From assembly GCF_026537325.1 (NCBI RefSeq), contig NZ_JAFNMJ010000006.1, forward strand, positions 1 to 64,000: a DNA stretch of 64,000 nucleotides, read 5' to 3'. The notes beneath the pieces were generated by a model. The model saw nothing but the letters and a program-made list of their open reading frames with translations, had not been told where the DNA came from and did no database searches. Made by a program: the position numbers and the translations under genes. This document shows, piece by piece, positions 14,388 through 40,608 of the stretch. Each line of letters begins with the position of its first letter. Position 1 is the first letter of the stretch. Source of the DNA: Bifidobacterium sp. B4142 (GTDB lineage: Bacteria > Actinomycetota > Actinomycetes > Actinomycetales > Bifidobacteriaceae).

Positions 14388-15872
14388 ATGGACCAGAACA
14401 CTGACTCGGCTACTATCAGCCCAGTAAATGCCACCGGCAACGGTGATGTAGCATATGAGTCCATTCCGACAGTATCGTCCTCATTAGAAAAGCCTGCTGT
14501 GCAAGCGGATATGCCGCCTGCCTATGCTCCAAGTTCCGATGTACCCCCTTCCTATCCACCTTCGGCAACACCTGAGGATCGCAGAGCTGTAGAGTCGGAT
14601 AATTCAGATGCAGTAGCGGCTCCAGCGCCTGTTCCAGGCAAAGCTACCACGTCGGCTCCTATAATTATTGTTTCAGGAAATCATGCTCAGGACGCAGGCC
14701 AGACAACTGTGGCTGCGTCCAAACAAGCTAAGAACAATGGCAAGGCCAGCAAGTCAGGGCGAGGGTTCGGCCTCCTGGAGACCTTGGCTTTCCTGATTGG
14801 TCTGGCAATCTTCCTCTATCCGTTGCTGGCAGCTTACGTGAACTATTCCAAGGATTCCGCCGCAGTCGACAACTACGATCAGATCGTGGATGCACTCTCG
14901 CCTGCACAGCGCAAAGCCATGTGGCGCGATGCCAAGAAGTACGACGAGGAATTAGGCAAGCCTACGCTGAGGGACCCCTTCAAATACAAGGAAGTCAAGG
15001 AACCACTGGGTCGCTACTACAAGATCCTCAATGTGGACGGCAAGGGCATGATGGCCTATGTGGAGATCCCCAAAATCAATGTCAAGCTGCCCGTGCGCCA
15101 TGGAACAAGTGATGCGGTGCTCAAGGACGGCACAGGACATATTGCCACGACCCACGTGCCTACAGACAACCGAACCATCCATGCCGTCATCACCGGGCAT
15201 ACCGGTGAGGTCGGGTACATGCTTTTCGACAACCTGACCCAGTTGCGCAAGGGGGATGTTTTCCAGATACGAGTGCTCAAACGGCACATGAGCTACAAGG
15301 TGGACCAGATTAAGGTCATCTTGCCTACCGATGTCAGCGCACTGCAGCCAATCCAGAATTCCAACTACGTGACCCTGTTGACCTGCTATCCCTATGGCGT
15401 CAACTCCCACCGACTGATCGTGCGTGGGCATTATATCGGTGATGATGTACCCCCCACTCAACCTGAGGGGGCGCCCATCTACATGGTCTGGGTGCTCCTT
15501 GCCCTGTTTGCGGCCAGCCTTGTGGGCTGGTACCTGCTCTCGCGCCGCCGGCGCAGCTGCCGTCAAGACCTGGAGCAGATGGAGCATCTGGTGTCTCGGG
15601 CCACAGGATCCGGAACCGTGGGGGAGCCACTGGCCACGATCATGGTCAGCCATGAGCAGGAGACCCGAGCCGAAGCCACCCGTCGTCGCCGGTTGATCAA
15701 AACACGGCGGATCTGCAGCGCACTCATGTGGCTGCTGGCTCTGCTCTGTCTGTTCTTCGCCTGGGGTTCGGTCGGCATGATGATGCGGATCGGCTTCCTG
15801 CCTGTATTCGACCTTGGCTATCACTGGTTCGACACCCACCTGCTGTACTTCTTCGGCATCGCCAAATTCTAG
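14388..15872 (+). CDS. class C (pilus-assembling) sortase
   Basis: Transpeptidase that joins pilin subunits at their sorting signals and hands them to the cell wall. The 494-residue protein has an unusual Pro/Ala-rich cytosolic N-terminus of about 125 residues, a membrane segment at 128-150, a lid segment with DPF at 196-198, catalytic His271 in ITGHTGEVGYMLF, catalytic Cys333 in LLTCYPYG, and the catalytic Arg in HRLIVRG. Two further hydrophobic segments follow near the C-terminus; class C sortases normally have one. It follows the two pilin genes, separated by a terminator, so it may have its own promoter. Confidence 0.92.
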   Translation: MDQNTDSATISPVNATGNGDVAYESIPTVSSSLEKPAVQADMPPAYAPSSDVPPSYPPSATPEDRRAVESDNSDAVAAPAPVPGKATTSAPIIIVSGNHAQDAGQTTVAASKQAKNNGKASKSGRGFGLLETLAFLIGLAIFLYPLLAAYVNYSKDSAAVDNYDQIVDALSPAQRKAMWRDAKKYDEELGKPTLRDPFKYKEVKEPLGRYYKILNVDGKGMMAYVEIPKINVKLPVRHGTSDAVLKDGTGHIATTHVPTDNRTIHAVITGHTGEVGYMLFDNLTQLRKGDVFQIRVLKRHMSYKVDQIKVILPTDVSALQPIQNSNYVTLLTCYPYGVNSHRLIVRGHYIGDDVPPTQPEGAPIYMVWVLLALFAASLVGWYLLSRRRRSCRQDLEQMEHLVSRATGSGTVGEPLATIMVSHEQETRAEATRRRRLIKTRRICSALMWLLALLCLFFAWGSVGMMMRIGFLPVFDLGYHWFDTHLLYFFGIAKF

Positions 15873-17801: not shown

Positions 17802-17816
17802 CCCCCCCCCCCCCCC
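17802..17816 (+). repeat. C15 homopolymer next to the GH43 promoter
   Basis: Fifteen consecutive C at the end of a pyrimidine-rich stretch, four bases upstream of the putative -35 box of the GH43 gene. Such tracts change length by slipped-strand mispairing and can change promoter activity. Confidence 0.9.
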
Positions 17817-17880: not shown

Positions 17881-17944
17881 CCGCATGGATTCCTGAATTT
17901 CTCAGGTTCTATGCCCGCAGCCATCGGCAACAGGGAGGTTGGCC

Positions 17945-19912
17945 ATGAACGGCAATCGTGGTTCGCATATGCCAGGGGAAGGGCATCACATAGGGGGCCA
18001 TATGCTGAAAAGCCGCAAATCGGCCATTCTGCTTGTCGCCCTGGCTGTGATTATGGGTTTGTCATTCGTGGCGCCAAAGACGGTCGCCGCTCAAGAAGCG
18101 GGGCAAAAATCTCATTCTGCAGGCGGAAGCGGGCAAATCGTCAATGACCGTTTCTGGAATGACGCCGACGGCAATCCGATGTATATGCAAGGCGGAGGAA
18201 TCTTCGATTTCCCGGATCCTGCCACGGGGAGGGTCTCTCACTTTTGGTATGGTGTTCACTTTTCACAGGCGGAAACTTACCGTCATGACCCTACCCATGC
18301 GCTCACCGGCAATGACTTCATTTCAGTGGATGTCTACAAATCCGAGAATCTGTCCGACTGGCGCTATCAAGGCGTGGCTTTGGACAGAGCACAGGCCGAT
18401 GCCTTCTCCGGTGATTTCGGTGGCCGCCGTGCGGGTTGGGTGTGCAGAACGGGGGTTGCCTATATCCCCGAGCTGCAAACCTATGCCATGCTCATCCAGC
18501 ATGAGATGCCTATTGATGCCACTGGTCGCGATTTCGACAAAAAGGTGCTGATCGCTACGGCCCATTCACCTGCTGGCCCGTTCAAAGCCCAGAGGCGTAT
18601 CGACATGCGCGATTACGGACTGGGCACCAGCAATACCGGGGACCAAAGCGTCTTCCAGGATGAGGACGGCACAGGTTATCTGATCTATTCCTATGGCCGT
18701 GGCCGCGGCAGTGTCTGGGCAGCCAGAATAGGCGCCAGAAACGGCCGGGTGGATTTGCTGGAGCCTACCAAGCTCTACCAGGGTTTTGGGCGTGAAGGCA
18801 ATGCGCTTTTCAAGCACGCTGGCCGGTATTATCTTGCTGGCTCCGATCTGTTCGGGTGGGATGCTTCCCGAATTCATTTCCAGGTTGCAGATCACCTTTT
18901 CGGCCCGTATCAGCCCGTCAATCAGACGGTGATCATGGATGGCAGCCGAGCAGATTTCGGCCATATCACCCAGACTGGTTTTTACTACACCTTGCGTGGC
19001 AGCAGAGCGGAGACCGTCATCCACTGCGGCGACCGATGGGCTGACTTCGCAGGCAACGGACTTGGCTACAACCAGTGGAATCCGCTGAGCTTCGATGATG
19101 TCGGCACGCCCCGCTTCAATTCCATGAGCCAGTGGAGGCTGGATGCGGATACCGGCCTTTGGTCGGTTGGCGAGGCCAATGACTACGTGCTCAATGGGTC
19201 CTTCGAAGCGGACAGGATTTCGGTAGGCGAGCACGGGTATCGGGATAAGGATGGCCAGGTGATTGGCGATATCGCCGGATGGCGGCGTGTCAATCCGGAT
19301 GCTGTGGCCAACGTAGCCGATGCCTATGGGCGAGTGGGCGACTTCGACCTGCGGTTCGCTCCCGGGAGATCCCGCGACGCCTCCATTGTCCAGGATCTTA
19401 ATGCACCGGGACATGTTCCCCTGCACGCGGGCCGCTACCTTCTGAAACTCTCCTATATGAATCCCAAAGGCATGGATCGGGCCAGGATCGCAATCGAATC
19501 CGGTGGGAGAACCTCTGAAATCGACCTGGCTGACTCTACTGGCACAGGCTGGAGGCAGGCCTCCTTGCCGGTCGAACTGGTTGGCGGCCAGACCAGGATC
19601 GCTGTCGAGGCTTCCGGCAGGTCGGGCCAGACCCTTCATGTGGACGACGTGTCTCTGACAGATGCGCCTGACAAGGGGGCTGAAAGCAATGGTGAAATCA
19701 ATCAGGGCGCAAATGTGCTTCCGGCGGTCCATGCAGGAGGAGGGGCCGTCTCCGTTCGTCTTGGCGTCGAGAGCGCGGTTTCATCCCATGCATTGGCTGC
19801 CGGGGGCATCGCCGCCGGCAGCATTCCGATCTTCGCGGCCGGCTGTGTGGCGGCGGGCGTTCTGTTGATGGCTGTAGCCGGGCGTGGGCGGCGTCTTCTT
19901 GCGCTGAATTGA
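17945..19912 (+). CDS. secreted, membrane-anchored GH43-like glycosidase (possible exo-beta-1,3-galactanase)
   Basis: The 655-residue protein has a signal peptide (cut near residue 49), a catalytic domain at about 60-400 resembling GH43 subfamily 24 (GGGIFDF...WYG, YKSENLSDWRYQGVAL, QDEDGTGYLIYSYG), a beta-sandwich region near 415-560 that looks like a carbohydrate-binding module (NGSFEADRISVG, VDDVSLTD), and a C-terminal membrane span with a basic tail. GH43_24 enzymes release galactose from beta-1,3-galactan of arabinogalactan. The subfamily is judged from memory of motifs. The ATG at 17945 follows AGGGAGG by six bases. An ABC importer and a GH42 beta-galactosidase follow under the same operator type. 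Confidence 0.75.
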   Translation: MNGNRGSHMPGEGHHIGGHMLKSRKSAILLVALAVIMGLSFVAPKTVAAQEAGQKSHSAGGSGQIVNDRFWNDADGNPMYMQGGGIFDFPDPATGRVSHFWYGVHFSQAETYRHDPTHALTGNDFISVDVYKSENLSDWRYQGVALDRAQADAFSGDFGGRRAGWVCRTGVAYIPELQTYAMLIQHEMPIDATGRDFDKKVLIATAHSPAGPFKAQRRIDMRDYGLGTSNTGDQSVFQDEDGTGYLIYSYGRGRGSVWAARIGARNGRVDLLEPTKLYQGFGREGNALFKHAGRYYLAGSDLFGWDASRIHFQVADHLFGPYQPVNQTVIMDGSRADFGHITQTGFYYTLRGSRAETVIHCGDRWADFAGNGLGYNQWNPLSFDDVGTPRFNSMSQWRLDADTGLWSVGEANDYVLNGSFEADRISVGEHGYRDKDGQVIGDIAGWRRVNPDAVANVADAYGRVGDFDLRFAPGRSRDASIVQDLNAPGHVPLHAGRYLLKLSYMNPKGMDRARIAIESGGRTSEIDLADSTGTGWRQASLPVELVGGQTRIAVEASGRSGQTLHVDDVSLTDAPDKGAESNGEINQGANVLPAVHAGGGAVSVRLGVESAVSSHALAAGGIAAGSIPIFAAGCVAAGVLLMAVAGRGRRLLALN

Positions 19913-35491: not shown

Positions 35492-38400
35492 TCAGTGCTC
35501 GTGTCGGACGTTCGTCCTTCCACCTTGTCCACTTTGCATTTCAACCCGCTGACGTTTTGCGGCCAAGCCACTGATTGCGGCCAGCGATCCAGCCAAGATG
35601 GTGATCAGGATGCCTGTTTCTCCTGTCAAGGGCAGGACGCCATAGTGGATGAAACGGAAGGCATTGGTCTCATCCTCGGGTTGTGGAGCCCCATTGAGCG
35701 TCCAAGTGATGCTGACAGTCGTGTCGCCGGCCTGGTGGTTTGGCGTCAGCACGGTCCATGCGCCGTCCTCCTGCCCCGTGAAGCTTGGACTGGTTCCTCT
35801 GGTGTTTCCGAATTTCACTGTGGATGGGATACCGAGTCTGAAGGGGAAGAGTGCGTCGACAGGGGAATAGGCTGTCTGCGTTGCATTGTTGCCCAAGCGT
35901 CCTTGGCCGTTGTCTCCCCAGCCCAAGGTGCTGCCGCTGGAGGCTATAGCCAGAGTGTGGTCAGTGCCAGCACTGACCTTGACGAAGTGGTCGATGCCTG
36001 ATGGATTGCCCATCTTGGTTGGCTTGTTCAGGCTGCCTGTATTTCCGGTCCCCAGCATGCCTGATGAGTTTTGACCCCAGCCCCAGATGTTTCCGTTCTG
36101 GTCCAGAGCCAGTGAATTGCCGCTAGCTCTGCTGGCTGTCAACTGAGTGAACATGCTGACGTTTGTAGGCATGGCTACCAGGGACGGAGCAGTCCTTATG
36201 TTGGTGTCGCTCAGGCCGAGCTCTCCATTGCTGTTTCCGCCCCAGGACCATAGGCGTCCCAGCTCATCGAGGGCGAAGGAGTGGCCTGTGCTTGCCAATA
36301 TTTGCACAGGCTTGAAGCCGCCTGTCGGGTTGGTGTCTGGCTTGGCCTGGACAGGTATGGAGGTGAAACCATTGAGTGTTACATCGCTCGTGTTGCCGAG
36401 GACACCGTTCTGGTTCGATCCCCAGCCCCAGGCATGGCCTTGGGTGTCAGTCGCCAGGGAATGTGAACCGCCCGCACTGACCTGTGCATAGCGGAATCCC
36501 GTCGTTTCGCCTTGCGGAGTTGCAACCTGGACGGGTCTGGTGGCGATTCCTGTCGTCGCTACAGTGCTAGAAGGAACGCCTAGTTTGCCGAACTCATTGG
36601 ATCCCCAGCCCCAGGCTCTGCCCTGCTCGTCTACGGCGAGGACATGAGTGATTCCCGCGCTGATACCAATGAGACTGAAGTTTGTTGCCGTCATCCCGCT
36701 TGGGGCTTGCACGCGAATCGGGCTCGAGCTGTATGCAGCTGAGCCATTGGTAGCAACGGCATTGTTGCCCAGCTGTCCGGAGCTGTTGAGTCCCCATGCC
36801 CAGACGTGGCCCTGTCCATCCAGAGCCAATGAGAAGGCTCTTCCCGCACTGACCTGTGTGAATCGGATTACGCCTGTCGGTTTGGGAATCTGAACCGGCG
36901 TCAAGCGGTCCGTTGTGGTCCCATCGCCCAGCTGTCCGTATTTATTGGCCCCCCAAGAATAGACGTTTCCATCCGATCCGAGAGCCAATGAATGATCGTC
37001 GCCGGCACTGACTTGGCTGAACCTAATGCCCCGTGCTGCAGGTGGTATCAGGATCACCTTGGTCTGACCGCTGTCGGGACCCTGCTTGGGAGAGGTGGTC
37101 CATTGCCCGGCGCCTGCCGTCCAGTGGGCTGTCAGTTTCGTGGGACCCTTGACGGGGGAAGAAAAGTCGTAGGCCGCATCGCCGTTGAACCAGCCGTCGA
37201 ATAGGAAGCCCGGTCGGGTCGGGTCTTGATCTGGTCTGGGAACCGTTTGGTCCTCGATGACCGACTGACTGGTGGTCTGGCTGCCGTCAGCCTTATCGAA
37301 AGAGACGACATATCTGGGCGGGTCATAGGTGTAATTCAGGATTTCATCGAACTGCTGGCCATAGAGATTCCAGGTAATGGTCGCATCTACTCGCCCCTTC
37401 CTATGAGCTGGGGTCATCACCTGCCAGTTCGTACCTGCTTTTTTGATATCGTTGACCAGTGTTTGGTCGAATTTGACCGCAGTAACATCTGGCGAAAGCG
37501 GGAAAGCAGCCAAGCTTGGTGTCAGCCTCATCGCCTGCTTATTATCCGTACCTATAGGAACGTCTGGATCACCTAACTGTCCGCCGTTGTTCCATCCCCA
37601 GGTGTACAGGTTTCCATCTGATCCTAATGCAGATGATTCTTCCCATCCTGCATTGATCTGAGCCCAAGTGAATTTCTGGGCAGTTGTAGATGTTGGTTGA
37701 TTGACAATGTGTGGTCTATTGATGTATGAACCGTCGGTGCTTATATCTTTGATACCTAGTTGGCCGTGATCGTTTCGTCCCCAGGAATAGAGATTGCCGT
37801 CCGAGCCAATGGCTAGGACGTGAGAGTCTCTTATCATGACTCGTATCCAGGTAAACCCTGACGGTGCTCCGTTGGGTGGAGATATTAAAGTGGGTGTTTT
37901 TCTATCTTCTGCATTGCTGCCATCTCCTAGCCGTCCGTATCCGTTCCATCCCCAAGCGTAAAGATCTCCATTCGTGCTGATTGCGAAACAAGATGTATCT
38001 CCCGCGTTGAACTGGGAGAAGGTAACGCCGGCGGGTTGGTGGACCTGAACAGGAGTAGATCGCGGAATATCGGTCCCATCTCCTAGCCGTCCGTATCCGT
38101 TCCATCCCCAAGCGTACAAGTTGTTATCTGAGCCTAGGGCAAAAGAGTTATACCGTCCAGCACTTAACTGAGTGAAAGTGACTCCTGCTGGCCTGCTGAC
38201 AAGTACAGGTTTGCTGCTATACGCATCGGAATTATCGGTGCCAGTAGGGACGCTGGTGTTGCCGAGCTGGCTGTACTCGTTCCATCCCCAGGCATAGAGA
38301 TTGTGATCTGAGCCTAATGCCAGGGTGTGATCCCATCGGGTGCTTACTTGGGTCCAGGTAAATCCATTTGAGACACCGGCAGGCTTCGGAACCTGGATAG

Positions 38401-39339
38401 GAGCCGACCGGTTTGTGGTAGTTCCATCGCCAAGTTGTCCACGGGTATTGTTCCCCCAAGCATAGAGGTTACCGTCAGAACCTATAGCGAAAGAGGAATG
38501 GTCGCCAGCGGCAATGGTAGTGAAAGTGAATTGGGCTGACGTATTGGCCGGCTTGTTTATTTTCACTGGTGTTTGTCGCAGAGTGTTGGTGCTGTCGCCC
38601 AATTGTCCTGAACTATTATCACCCCAGGCGTAGAGGTTTTCATCCGACCCAAGAGCCAAGGAATGGGTTGCTCCTGATGTGATTTGAGAGAATTTGATGC
38701 CACGGATTGCTGGGGGAGTCAGTGTCACTGCAGTATTTCCCGATGCAGCTCCGTGCGCAGGTGCCAGAGACCAATGGCCATCGCCGGCTGTCCATTTTGC
38801 AGTCAGCTTCAGGTTGCTGGTGACGGGCTGGTTGAAGTCGTAGGCTACCTGGCCCGTAAACCAGCCGTCGAAGAGGTATCCGTGCTTGGTGGGATCTGTC
38901 GGTCGTTTCGCCAGACCTCCCGAAGGGATAATTTGTGCGACAGGGGCTTCTGTGTCAGCTTGGACCGTGTCAAAGGTGACCGAACATTGACTATTGGGGC
39001 AGGAGCTTATCGACCGAGTGGAAAGAGCGGGGCTTGCTGAGTCTAGTGAAGTGGGGGAGGGCAAAGCCGGAGAGGGTGTTAGTTGAATAGAGGAATCCAG
39101 CTTTTGAGTTATAGGTGGTGTGGAAATATTAGAGGGAATTTGAGTAGAGCCAGGTATACTTGAAGTCCCCCCCCCCCCCCCGTCCCCGGATTTTTCATGC
39201 TTTGCGATGCTATTGGGGATGCGGTGGCATCTGCCTGTGCTAGGTCAATCCACGAAAGGTTTGCCAATATAAACCCTGATACGATAATAGCTATAAGAGA
39301 AGCAATGCAGCATGCGCGATTCTTATATAACAATTGCAT
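35492..39339 (-). CDS. phase-variable LPLTG-anchored surface protein with two RCC1 propellers (frame OFF at a poly-G run)
   Basis: The true start is ATG 39339, preceded by AAAAGGA. It gives a signal peptide (MQLLYKNRACCIASLIAIIV...). After 52 codons the frame enters G15 (39167-39181 on the complement) and ends at 39109. The rest is open in another frame from directly after the run to 35492 without a stop. With G16 or G13 the frames join into about 1,282 residues. Order after the run: Ser/Pro/Thr-rich linker, InlB-type repeat (GYLFDGWFTGQVAYDFNQPV), seven RCC1 repeats (pattern SLALGSDxNLYAWGxNxxGQLG), a second InlB-type repeat (GFLFDGWFNGDAAYDFSSPV), seven more RCC1 repeats, an Ig-like stretch, LPLTGETG, a hydrophobic span and a basic tail. 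Two seven-repeat sets imply two closed seven-bladed propellers. The likely role is adhesion (inference). A sequencing error in the run is the main alternative. Confidence 0.88.
39167..39181 (-). repeat. poly-G tract (G15) inside the RCC1 surface gene
   Basis: Fifteen C on the plus strand, read as G in the gene, at the exact junction between the signal-peptide frame and the long downstream frame. Length 3n+1 restores one continuous frame; the present 15 does not. Confidence 0.93.
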
Positions 39340-39533
39340 ACGGTCCTTTTCAAAAGCAACAGCGCATACAACATTGCAACTGCATCTCCGACTCAATCCG
39401 CACGGCCAACGTGTATGTCGCTCAATTATGATTAGTTTATCACAGCTCTGGAATACCGAGGTTTCAGTGATGGCCTTCTCTCGCTTGACGATCGGATTAT
39501 CAGCAGGTAATTGGAACAGGTCGTGTCTCAGGC

Positions 39534-39575
39534 AAAAAAGAACTTCCGGTAAGCCGAACTAGCCTACCGGAAGTT
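39534..39575 (-). terminator. intrinsic terminator of the G5/transglycosylase gene
   Basis: On the minus strand AACTTCCGGTA and TACCGGAAGTT form a perfect 11-bp stem with a 13-base loop, followed by C and six T (39539-39534). It lies 26 bp after the stop of the gene at 39601. Confidence 0.92.
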
Positions 39576-39600
39576 CCTGGTTGAGTTGTATGAAAACGAA

Positions 39601-40608
39601 TCAGTACCAGTTGGATGACTGGGAATGAGCCCATGCGCCACAGGGTGTCCCATAGCGGCCCTGGATATAGTCCAGTCCCCAGACGATCTGAGTGTGGGCG
39701 TCTGTCTGCCAGTTGGGGCCGGCCGAGGCCATCTTGCTGCCGGGCAACGCTTGTGGAATGCCATAGGCGCCTGAGGGGTTGGCGGCATTGGTCCGCCAAC
39801 CGGACTCCTTGTTCCACAGCTGCACCAGGCAGGTGAACTGGTCTTCGCCCCAGCCGCGGGAGGCGACCACATCGTGGGCGATGCTCTGGGCTTCGCCTAC
39901 AGGCGTCGTGGTGGTAGTCGAGCCGGACTGTGCAGGGGTTCCGCCACCAGTGCCCACCAGGATTACCTTATCGACGGGGACGGTCTTAACGAAGGATGCG
40001 AAGATATTGCTGGCCAGATGTTTGCTGCCGGCTTCGGTGACCAGGCTAGTGGTCTCCATGACGCCATTCTGCCCCTCAGTCTTGACCTTGGTGGTGCCTG
40101 CCGGCAGGGAGTCGGTCTTTTCTTCGATGGTGTTGAAGGGGATGGGCGACTCGTCAGTTTTGACTTGGGCGTTGGCCCGGTCGATGCGGATGATGGTCTT
40201 CTCGTTGATGCGAGTGGTCAGCGACGGGGCGATCTGGTCTCCCGGCTGCAGGGTAATGTCCCCGGCTTCCAGCACGGATTTGACATCGGTGAAGCCGTTG
40301 CCCAGCACCACCTTGTTCTTCCCGTTGATCTGCACATTCACGTAGGATGTACCGGAGTTGGCACCGCCCGCACCATTGCGGATGGCCTGCCTAGTGCTGC
40401 TGCGGGACACCGTGCCAAGATCCTGGGTGGCGGAATAGGATGTTACGCCGGACTTGGCCGAGTTCTCAGTGGATGCGTAGAAGTCGCGCGAGGCGAAACC
40501 CGCGCCAATGACCATACCGAGAACAGTAACACCGGCGGCTAGACGCAGCCACTGACGCTTGGTCAGAGCCTTGACCGCACTCATCCGTCCTCTACGGTGG
40601 TTCGCCAT
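39601..40608 (-). CDS. secreted G5-domain lytic transglycosylase (Rpf-like)
   Basis: Probable peptidoglycan-cleaving enzyme of 335 residues. The N-terminus has a basic stretch and a membrane/signal segment (about residues 22-40). A ubiquitin-like DUF348 module (VNVQINGKNKVVLGNGFTDV) and a G5 domain (about 150-215) follow, then a Gly/Thr linker and a C-terminal lysozyme-like domain with the probable catalytic Glu in LWNKESGWRTNAANPSGAYG. This domain order is common in actinobacterial Rpf-like proteins. GGAG precedes the ATG. A strong terminator follows, so the RCC1 gene downstream is transcribed separately. Confidence 0.88.
   Translation of the reverse strand: MANHRRGRMSAVKALTKRQWLRLAAGVTVLGMVIGAGFASRDFYASTENSAKSGVTSYSATQDLGTVSRSSTRQAIRNGAGGANSGTSYVNVQINGKNKVVLGNGFTDVKSVLEAGDITLQPGDQIAPSLTTRINEKTIIRIDRANAQVKTDESPIPFNTIEEKTDSLPAGTTKVKTEGQNGVMETTSLVTEAGSKHLASNIFASFVKTVPVDKVILVGTGGGTPAQSGSTTTTTPVGEAQSIAHDVVASRGWGEDQFTCLVQLWNKESGWRTNAANPSGAYGIPQALPGSKMASAGPNWQTDAHTQIVWGLDYIQGRYGTPCGAWAHSQSSNWY

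Follow-up and report, generated by a model that had tools for sequence, protein, structure and literature searches.

Within the window, the whole stretch of 64,000 nucleotides that was analysed, a gene on the minus strand is split between two reading frames by a homopolymer of 15 Gs. The first frame (39109..39339) opens with an ATG at 39339-39337, preceded four bases upstream by a ribosome-binding-site-like AAGGA (39344..39348, read from the sequence), and encodes a signal peptide (MQLLYKNRACCIASLIAIIVSGFILANLSWIDLAQADA...), which was called by eye and with a home-made hydrophobicity score and lies in a different frame from the body of the protein. The G15 tract (39167..39181) is found just 3' of the signal peptide, in a linker rich in Ser, Thr and Pro. 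It codes for five glycines, and 18 residues separate the glycine run from a stop codon at 39111-39109, leaving a stub of 76 residues. The second, long frame (35492..39244; minus strand), whose phase is offset by 2 relative to the first, is free of stops as far as 35495 and terminates at 35492-35494; neither its translation nor the hydrophobicity score showed a signal peptide belonging to it. An earlier note had described this arrangement, and its positions for the start (39339) and the stop (39109), its tract of 15 Gs, the size of the stub with its 18 residues past the tract, and the 34 uninterrupted sense codons between the tract and a TTG at 39064 all agreed with the sequence and its translation. 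Its frame arithmetic, by which a tract of 16 or 13 Gs would join the two parts, holds as well, and the joined product of about 1,282 residues that it proposed fits the orthologues in which both parts are in frame (1,279-1,281 residues). An internal start as the source of the main product was considered and rejected, as the TTG at 39064 has neither a visible ribosome-binding site nor a signal peptide.

The long frame encodes RCC1 repeats and an LPLTG motif, again as had been noted. Pfam places 13 stretches of RCC1 (PF00415) and four of WD40_RLD (PF25390; E 8e-179) in it, the best of the latter covering an RCC1-like propeller at 35858..36862 (minus strand; residues 735-1069 of the 1190-residue frame). 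By our reading of the domain layout, the RCC1 stretches would make two propeller regions, and PDB entries related by sequence are RCC1-like propellers, among them UVR8, HERC1/2 and RCC1. Each RCC1 domain is preceded by a Flg_new domain (Listeria-Bacteroides repeat), of which Pfam recognizes two stretches, the best at 38795..38980 (minus strand; residues 29-90); the position of the second was taken from the translation. At the C-terminal end lies the LPLTG motif with a hydrophobic stretch and a basic tail (35558..35638, minus strand; residues 1143-1169), where the Gram_pos_anchor match falls below the Pfam cut-off (18.2 against 20 bits) and the motif itself is readable in the translation. We take the protein to be secreted and probably anchored by a sortase.

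An intrinsic terminator-like site on the minus strand (39538..39578; an 18-pair stem and a T-run) lies between the upstream gene and the split gene, so the latter probably has its own promoter; a sigma-70 consensus promoter was not found within 39330-39640. One neighbour of the split gene ends ahead of this site, and the other is presumably permease-like. The sortase family (PF04203) has two above-cut-off matches in the genome, one on contig C15 and the other in the window at 15060-15431 (plus strand), about 20 kb from the split gene. The possibility that the gene is the first of a pilus operon with a dedicated sortase was rejected, since the neighbours do not fit and both sortase matches are remote.

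On both strands of the window together, there are two G-runs longer than 6, each of 15, and none of 7-14, and a first-order Markov model of the window predicts 0.003 runs of at least G15, on which grounds we reject a chance origin of the tract. Nine-mer matches number 14, against a mean of 4.29 over 100 shuffles (largest 13). The second G15 run (17802-17816, minus strand) is intergenic, and 122 bases after it comes the first start codon of ORF 17939-19912 on the plus strand, which encodes a Glyco_hydro_43 protein with a signal-peptide-like start; this run may act on a promoter. Across the source genome we count 32 runs of at least G9, three of them at RCC1 signal peptides and many others intergenic or in unidentified frames. 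The exact count of 15 deserves more caution than the presence of the tract. The assembly of the source genome is a draft of 19 contigs, and contig C18 ends in a run of 85 Gs (L136:3397-3481), which is probably a sequencing or assembly artefact. The count may therefore err by one or more, which makes the OFF state of the allele uncertain, its switchable design less so.

Orthologues and the wider RCC1 family

A search in 26 congeners gave, among the matches listed, seven orthologues with 78-85% protein identity, making eight with the present gene. The named hosts are B. apousia W8102 (G004), B. asteroides VRA_9sq_n (G010), B. mellis Bin7N (G020), B. mizhiense S053-2 (G021) and Bifidobacterium sp. 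7101 (G003), and we take the orthologue hosts to be bifidobacteria of bee origin. The source genome, too, falls within the bee-gut Bifidobacterium group. For the group as a whole, a bee origin is given in PMC4449606. The long frame is open in all eight genes. Five of them have just four or five Gs at the site, and all five are in frame (1,279-1,280 residues). The remaining three carry G15: one, in the single-contig genome G007, is in frame with 1,281 residues, and two are out of frame, with the stop after 56 residues in B. apousia W8102 and after 76 in the present gene. At this locus, the test proposed in the earlier note is passed only in part: the phase differs between species, but no difference in tract length was found among the three tract-bearing orthologues. 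With all three at G15, the phase difference stems from small changes in the adjacent bases of the flank. In an unrooted tree of the body, one branch (support 0.92) separates the three tract-bearing genes from the other five, so that a single gain or a single loss of the tract would suffice.

The body of the present gene has a dN/dS of 0.21-0.23 against its seven orthologues, compared with 0.13-0.27 among the other pairs and 0.13-0.16 among the closest of these. It contains no stop in the 1,152 codons compared, whereas simulated unconstrained drift at the divergence of its branch produced about 13 stops in the same number of codons, with none of 300 runs stop-free; when the divergence was set to 0.02 substitutions per site, 16 runs in 300 stayed free of stops. 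Judged from its codons, the out-of-frame body evolves under purifying selection.

To place the locus within its family, we took a census of RCC1 genes that covered 14 of the 27 genomes, in RCC1-rich regions chosen from the matches listed and not at random, together with the stretches around the tracts in G000, G007 and G002. An RCC1 frame was defined by at least three motifs and at least 250 residues, signal peptides were called with the home-made hydrophobicity rule, and frames beginning within 260 bases of the start of a region were excluded (21 of 162 in the last set). The first set comprised 112 RCC1 frames from the 14 genomes. A tract and a signal peptide are present in 55 of these, 11 in frame and 44 out of frame; among the 57 genes without a tract, the signal peptide is in frame in 53, out of frame in none, and was not found in four. 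The larger set, whose later regions come mainly from G002, holds 74 tract-bearing RCC1 genes with tracts of G10-G17, 18 of them ON and 56 OFF, a proportion not clearly different from one third ON (p 0.11). Excluded from the 74 were 17 rows in which a signal-peptide-scoring start is followed by a downstream frame of fewer than 300 residues. Three of these (one each in G002, G020 and G022) hold one or two RCC1 motifs and are all OFF, and may be decaying genes or genes cut by the ends of the regions.

Within the RCC1 frames, the tracts sit at the 5' junction. The 141 RCC1 frames, 11 of which are cut at the 3' end, contain 75 G-runs of at least 8. All but two lie no more than 400 nt from the start of the frame or no more than 200 nt before it, the two exceptions belonging to the same junction behind a longer open stretch, and a signal-peptide-scoring start lies ahead of every one of the 75. 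The length, on the other hand, varies behind one and the same flank: among 33 genes in which the tract is followed by TCGTCA, those with 11, 14 or 17 Gs are ON (eight genes) and those with 12, 13 or 15 are OFF (25 genes). G002, a single contig, has 27 tract-bearing RCC1 genes, of which eight have G10 and are ON and 19 have G11 and are OFF, with no other length present. A first sample from this genome had one gene in eight ON; expression of exactly one gene at a time was rejected once the larger set gave eight of 27. OFF alleles are also found in the other single-contig genomes (four of eight in G007 and five of nine in G019, next to the 19 of 27 in G002), and all three tract-bearing RCC1 genes of the source genome are OFF. 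Between similar genes, tract length is equal in 27 of 34 pairs (22 of the 27 at G12) and the state differs in six, the pairs overlapping and hence not being independent; in one example, two genes that match at 98.5% over 3,631 bases have G13 and G12, both OFF.

The state recorded for a tract is linked to the quality of the assembly. In near-complete genomes (G002, G007, G019, G022 with two contigs, and G011, which has no tract gene), 17 of 45 tract genes are ON, close to the third that random phase would give, against one of 29 in drafts (Fisher p 0.0006). Either drafts miscount such tracts or cultured strains differ, and the tract lengths in drafts, that of the present genome included, may therefore be biased. 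Long G-runs as such are a feature of the genus, with a median of 25 runs of at least G10 in 26 of its genomes against four in 75 genomes from the rest of the family, not all of which are complete; genus members with none or few include G009 (0) and G005 (6). In G002, 11 further tract genes lacking RCC1 motifs (at L235:8963-11434 and other loci) have the same layout with the tract in the signal peptide and 388-918 residues after it, one in frame and ten out of frame. One of their proteins looks leucine-rich-repeat-like by eye, with an LPTAG end.

Probable phase variation and its alternatives

We consider it very probable that the split gene is a simple-sequence contingency locus, belonging to a multigene surface family that undergoes phase variation by slipped-strand mispairing at poly-G. 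The features of such a locus are present, namely an early mononucleotide tract, frames that are open on both sides of it, and in-frame and out-of-frame alleles among relatives. Mispairing during replication would add or remove Gs; lengths that keep the frame would fuse the signal peptide to the body and bring the protein to the cell wall (ON), and with the remaining lengths, to which that of the sequenced allele would belong, the cell would secrete a short stub and lack the surface protein (OFF). Since the tract lies within a linker, changes by whole codons should do little harm. Slippage by the polymerase or the ribosome may also supply a low level of protein from OFF alleles. The ON/OFF reading of the earlier note is well supported at the level of the family, by the tracts at the junction, the alleles of both states, the several lengths behind one flank, the absence of any out-of-frame gene among the tract-less relatives and the purifying selection. 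Also in its favour are the two sortase-family loci of the genome and the experimental precedent in the genus (PMC9187656). Counting against it are the unvarying G15 of the three orthologues, the many similar gene pairs of equal tract length, the scarcity of ON alleles in drafts and the promoter that was not found. For this locus in particular, we infer slippage in living cells, selection for the switch and binding of the protein to some target in the bee gut; to name bee tissue, pollen or other bacteria as that target would be a guess from the domain types.

An out-of-frame count could also arise from an error of sequencing or assembly in a gene that is constant and in frame in the strain. The 19-contig draft with its 85-G contig end and the scarcity of ON alleles in drafts speak for such an error, as do annotated tract lengths that deviate from measured ones in the text of Penno et al. 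(PMC9187656). However, G007, which is a single contig, has the tract as well, out-of-frame tracts are frequent in single-contig genomes, and a miscount would alter the ON/OFF state assigned to the allele while leaving the switchable design intact, so that we regard this explanation as unlikely. Another source of a broken frame in this assembly would be a single frameshift by which the sequenced strain lost the gene. The dN/dS of the body does exceed that of the closest other pairs, though others reach 0.27, and the simulations at 0.02 substitutions per site argue only poorly against a loss confined to roughly the final fifth of the branch. Nevertheless, the stops that whole-branch drift would have left are missing, and most tract-bearing RCC1 genes (56 of 74) are OFF with the break at this very position, which makes a pseudogene highly improbable.

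The tract might instead work below the level of the genome, with slippage in transcription or frameshifting by the ribosome at G15 yielding full-length protein from every allele, in which case it would set the level of the protein and would not be a heritable switch. RNA polymerase is prone to slip on long G runs, which we count in favour of this view, and G15 has been kept in three species in different phases. But the way tract lengths in single-contig genomes divide into in-frame and out-of-frame ones, and the presence of just two lengths in G002, have the look of a genomic switch, and as a replacement for slipped-strand phase variation we find such slippage quite doubtful, more so than a miscount; it could well act on top of it.

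Beyond the single gene, we lean towards a view in which bee-gut bifidobacteria have a genus-wide combinatorial repertoire, each cell carrying from a few to dozens of wall-anchored RCC1 propeller proteins that would be toggled independently by poly-G. The same view has the tracts lying within the signal peptide or immediately after it, in several unlike flank contexts, and takes in other surface proteins in one genome. In the bee Bifido phylotype, the RCC1 surface proteins stand out as a family still lacking an explanation. If this repertoire is real, a beneficial gut symbiont would vary its surface within one host, much as pathogens do with their repeat-switched adhesins. If many RCC1 proteins switch, assemblies and annotations that capture one phase would misstate what a cell displays, and strain differences would escape gene lists. 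Bees can be raised germ-free, and would then offer a simple host in which to test how selection acts on phase variation when the symbiont is a beneficial one.

Comparison with known systems

Two papers on the RCC1 proteins of bee bifidobacteria, from 2012 and 2015, reportedly have Bottacini and Ellegaard as first authors. They describe RCC1-repeat LPxTG surface proteins (PMC3447821; PMC4449606), and the split gene shares the order given for the family in the latter, with Flg_new before each RCC1 domain and an LPxTG end, in a family arranged in tandem clusters. In their account of the family we found no description of switching, and frameshift, homopolymer and slipped/slipp do not occur in either main text. 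In line with the earlier note, which knew of no RCC1 case, our search of openly accessible papers turned up no RCC1 protein described as phase-variable, and looking there for phase variation or homopolymers in symbionts of the bee gut led nowhere. Site-specific inversion, a different mechanism, has been suggested for a plasmid-borne LPxTG gene of Apilactobacillus kunkeei.

The poly-G switching of bifidobacterial pilins that the earlier note mentioned is indeed on record. Penno et al. (2022; PMC9187656) describe a G-tract switch in two sortase-dependent pilus operons of Bifidobacterium breve UCC2003 (bbr_0113 and bbr_1889), in which replication slippage gives ON and OFF states that were quantified by Maximum Depth Sequencing. 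Tracts in other species are listed there, with no occurrence of asteroides in the main text, and a 2025 paper on B. dentium (PMC12104195) reports poly-G stretches at pilus clusters of that species. The likeness to the B. breve pili is close, both systems being bifidobacterial with a poly-G that parts a Sec signal peptide from an LPXTG body read in a different frame. They differ in tract length, which is 10-12 in the text and part of Table 1 of PMC9187656 compared with the longer G15 here, and in setting, as the B. breve tract lies in the gene that heads a pilus operon, which has a sortase of its own, whereas here it lies in the gene of a stand-alone RCC1 protein with many paralogues. The B. 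breve switch was moreover measured in populations, whereas the present one is proposed from assembled sequence.

The type of mechanism is thus already known from bifidobacterial pili; the scale of a family is what we have not seen described before. For that scale, the opa adhesins of Neisseria offer a parallel, being a multigene surface family in which each gene is switched by its own repeat in the signal-peptide region. The RCC1 genes resemble them in this per-gene arrangement, but the opa repeats are CTCTT, their products are outer-membrane barrels, and their hosts are Gram-negative.
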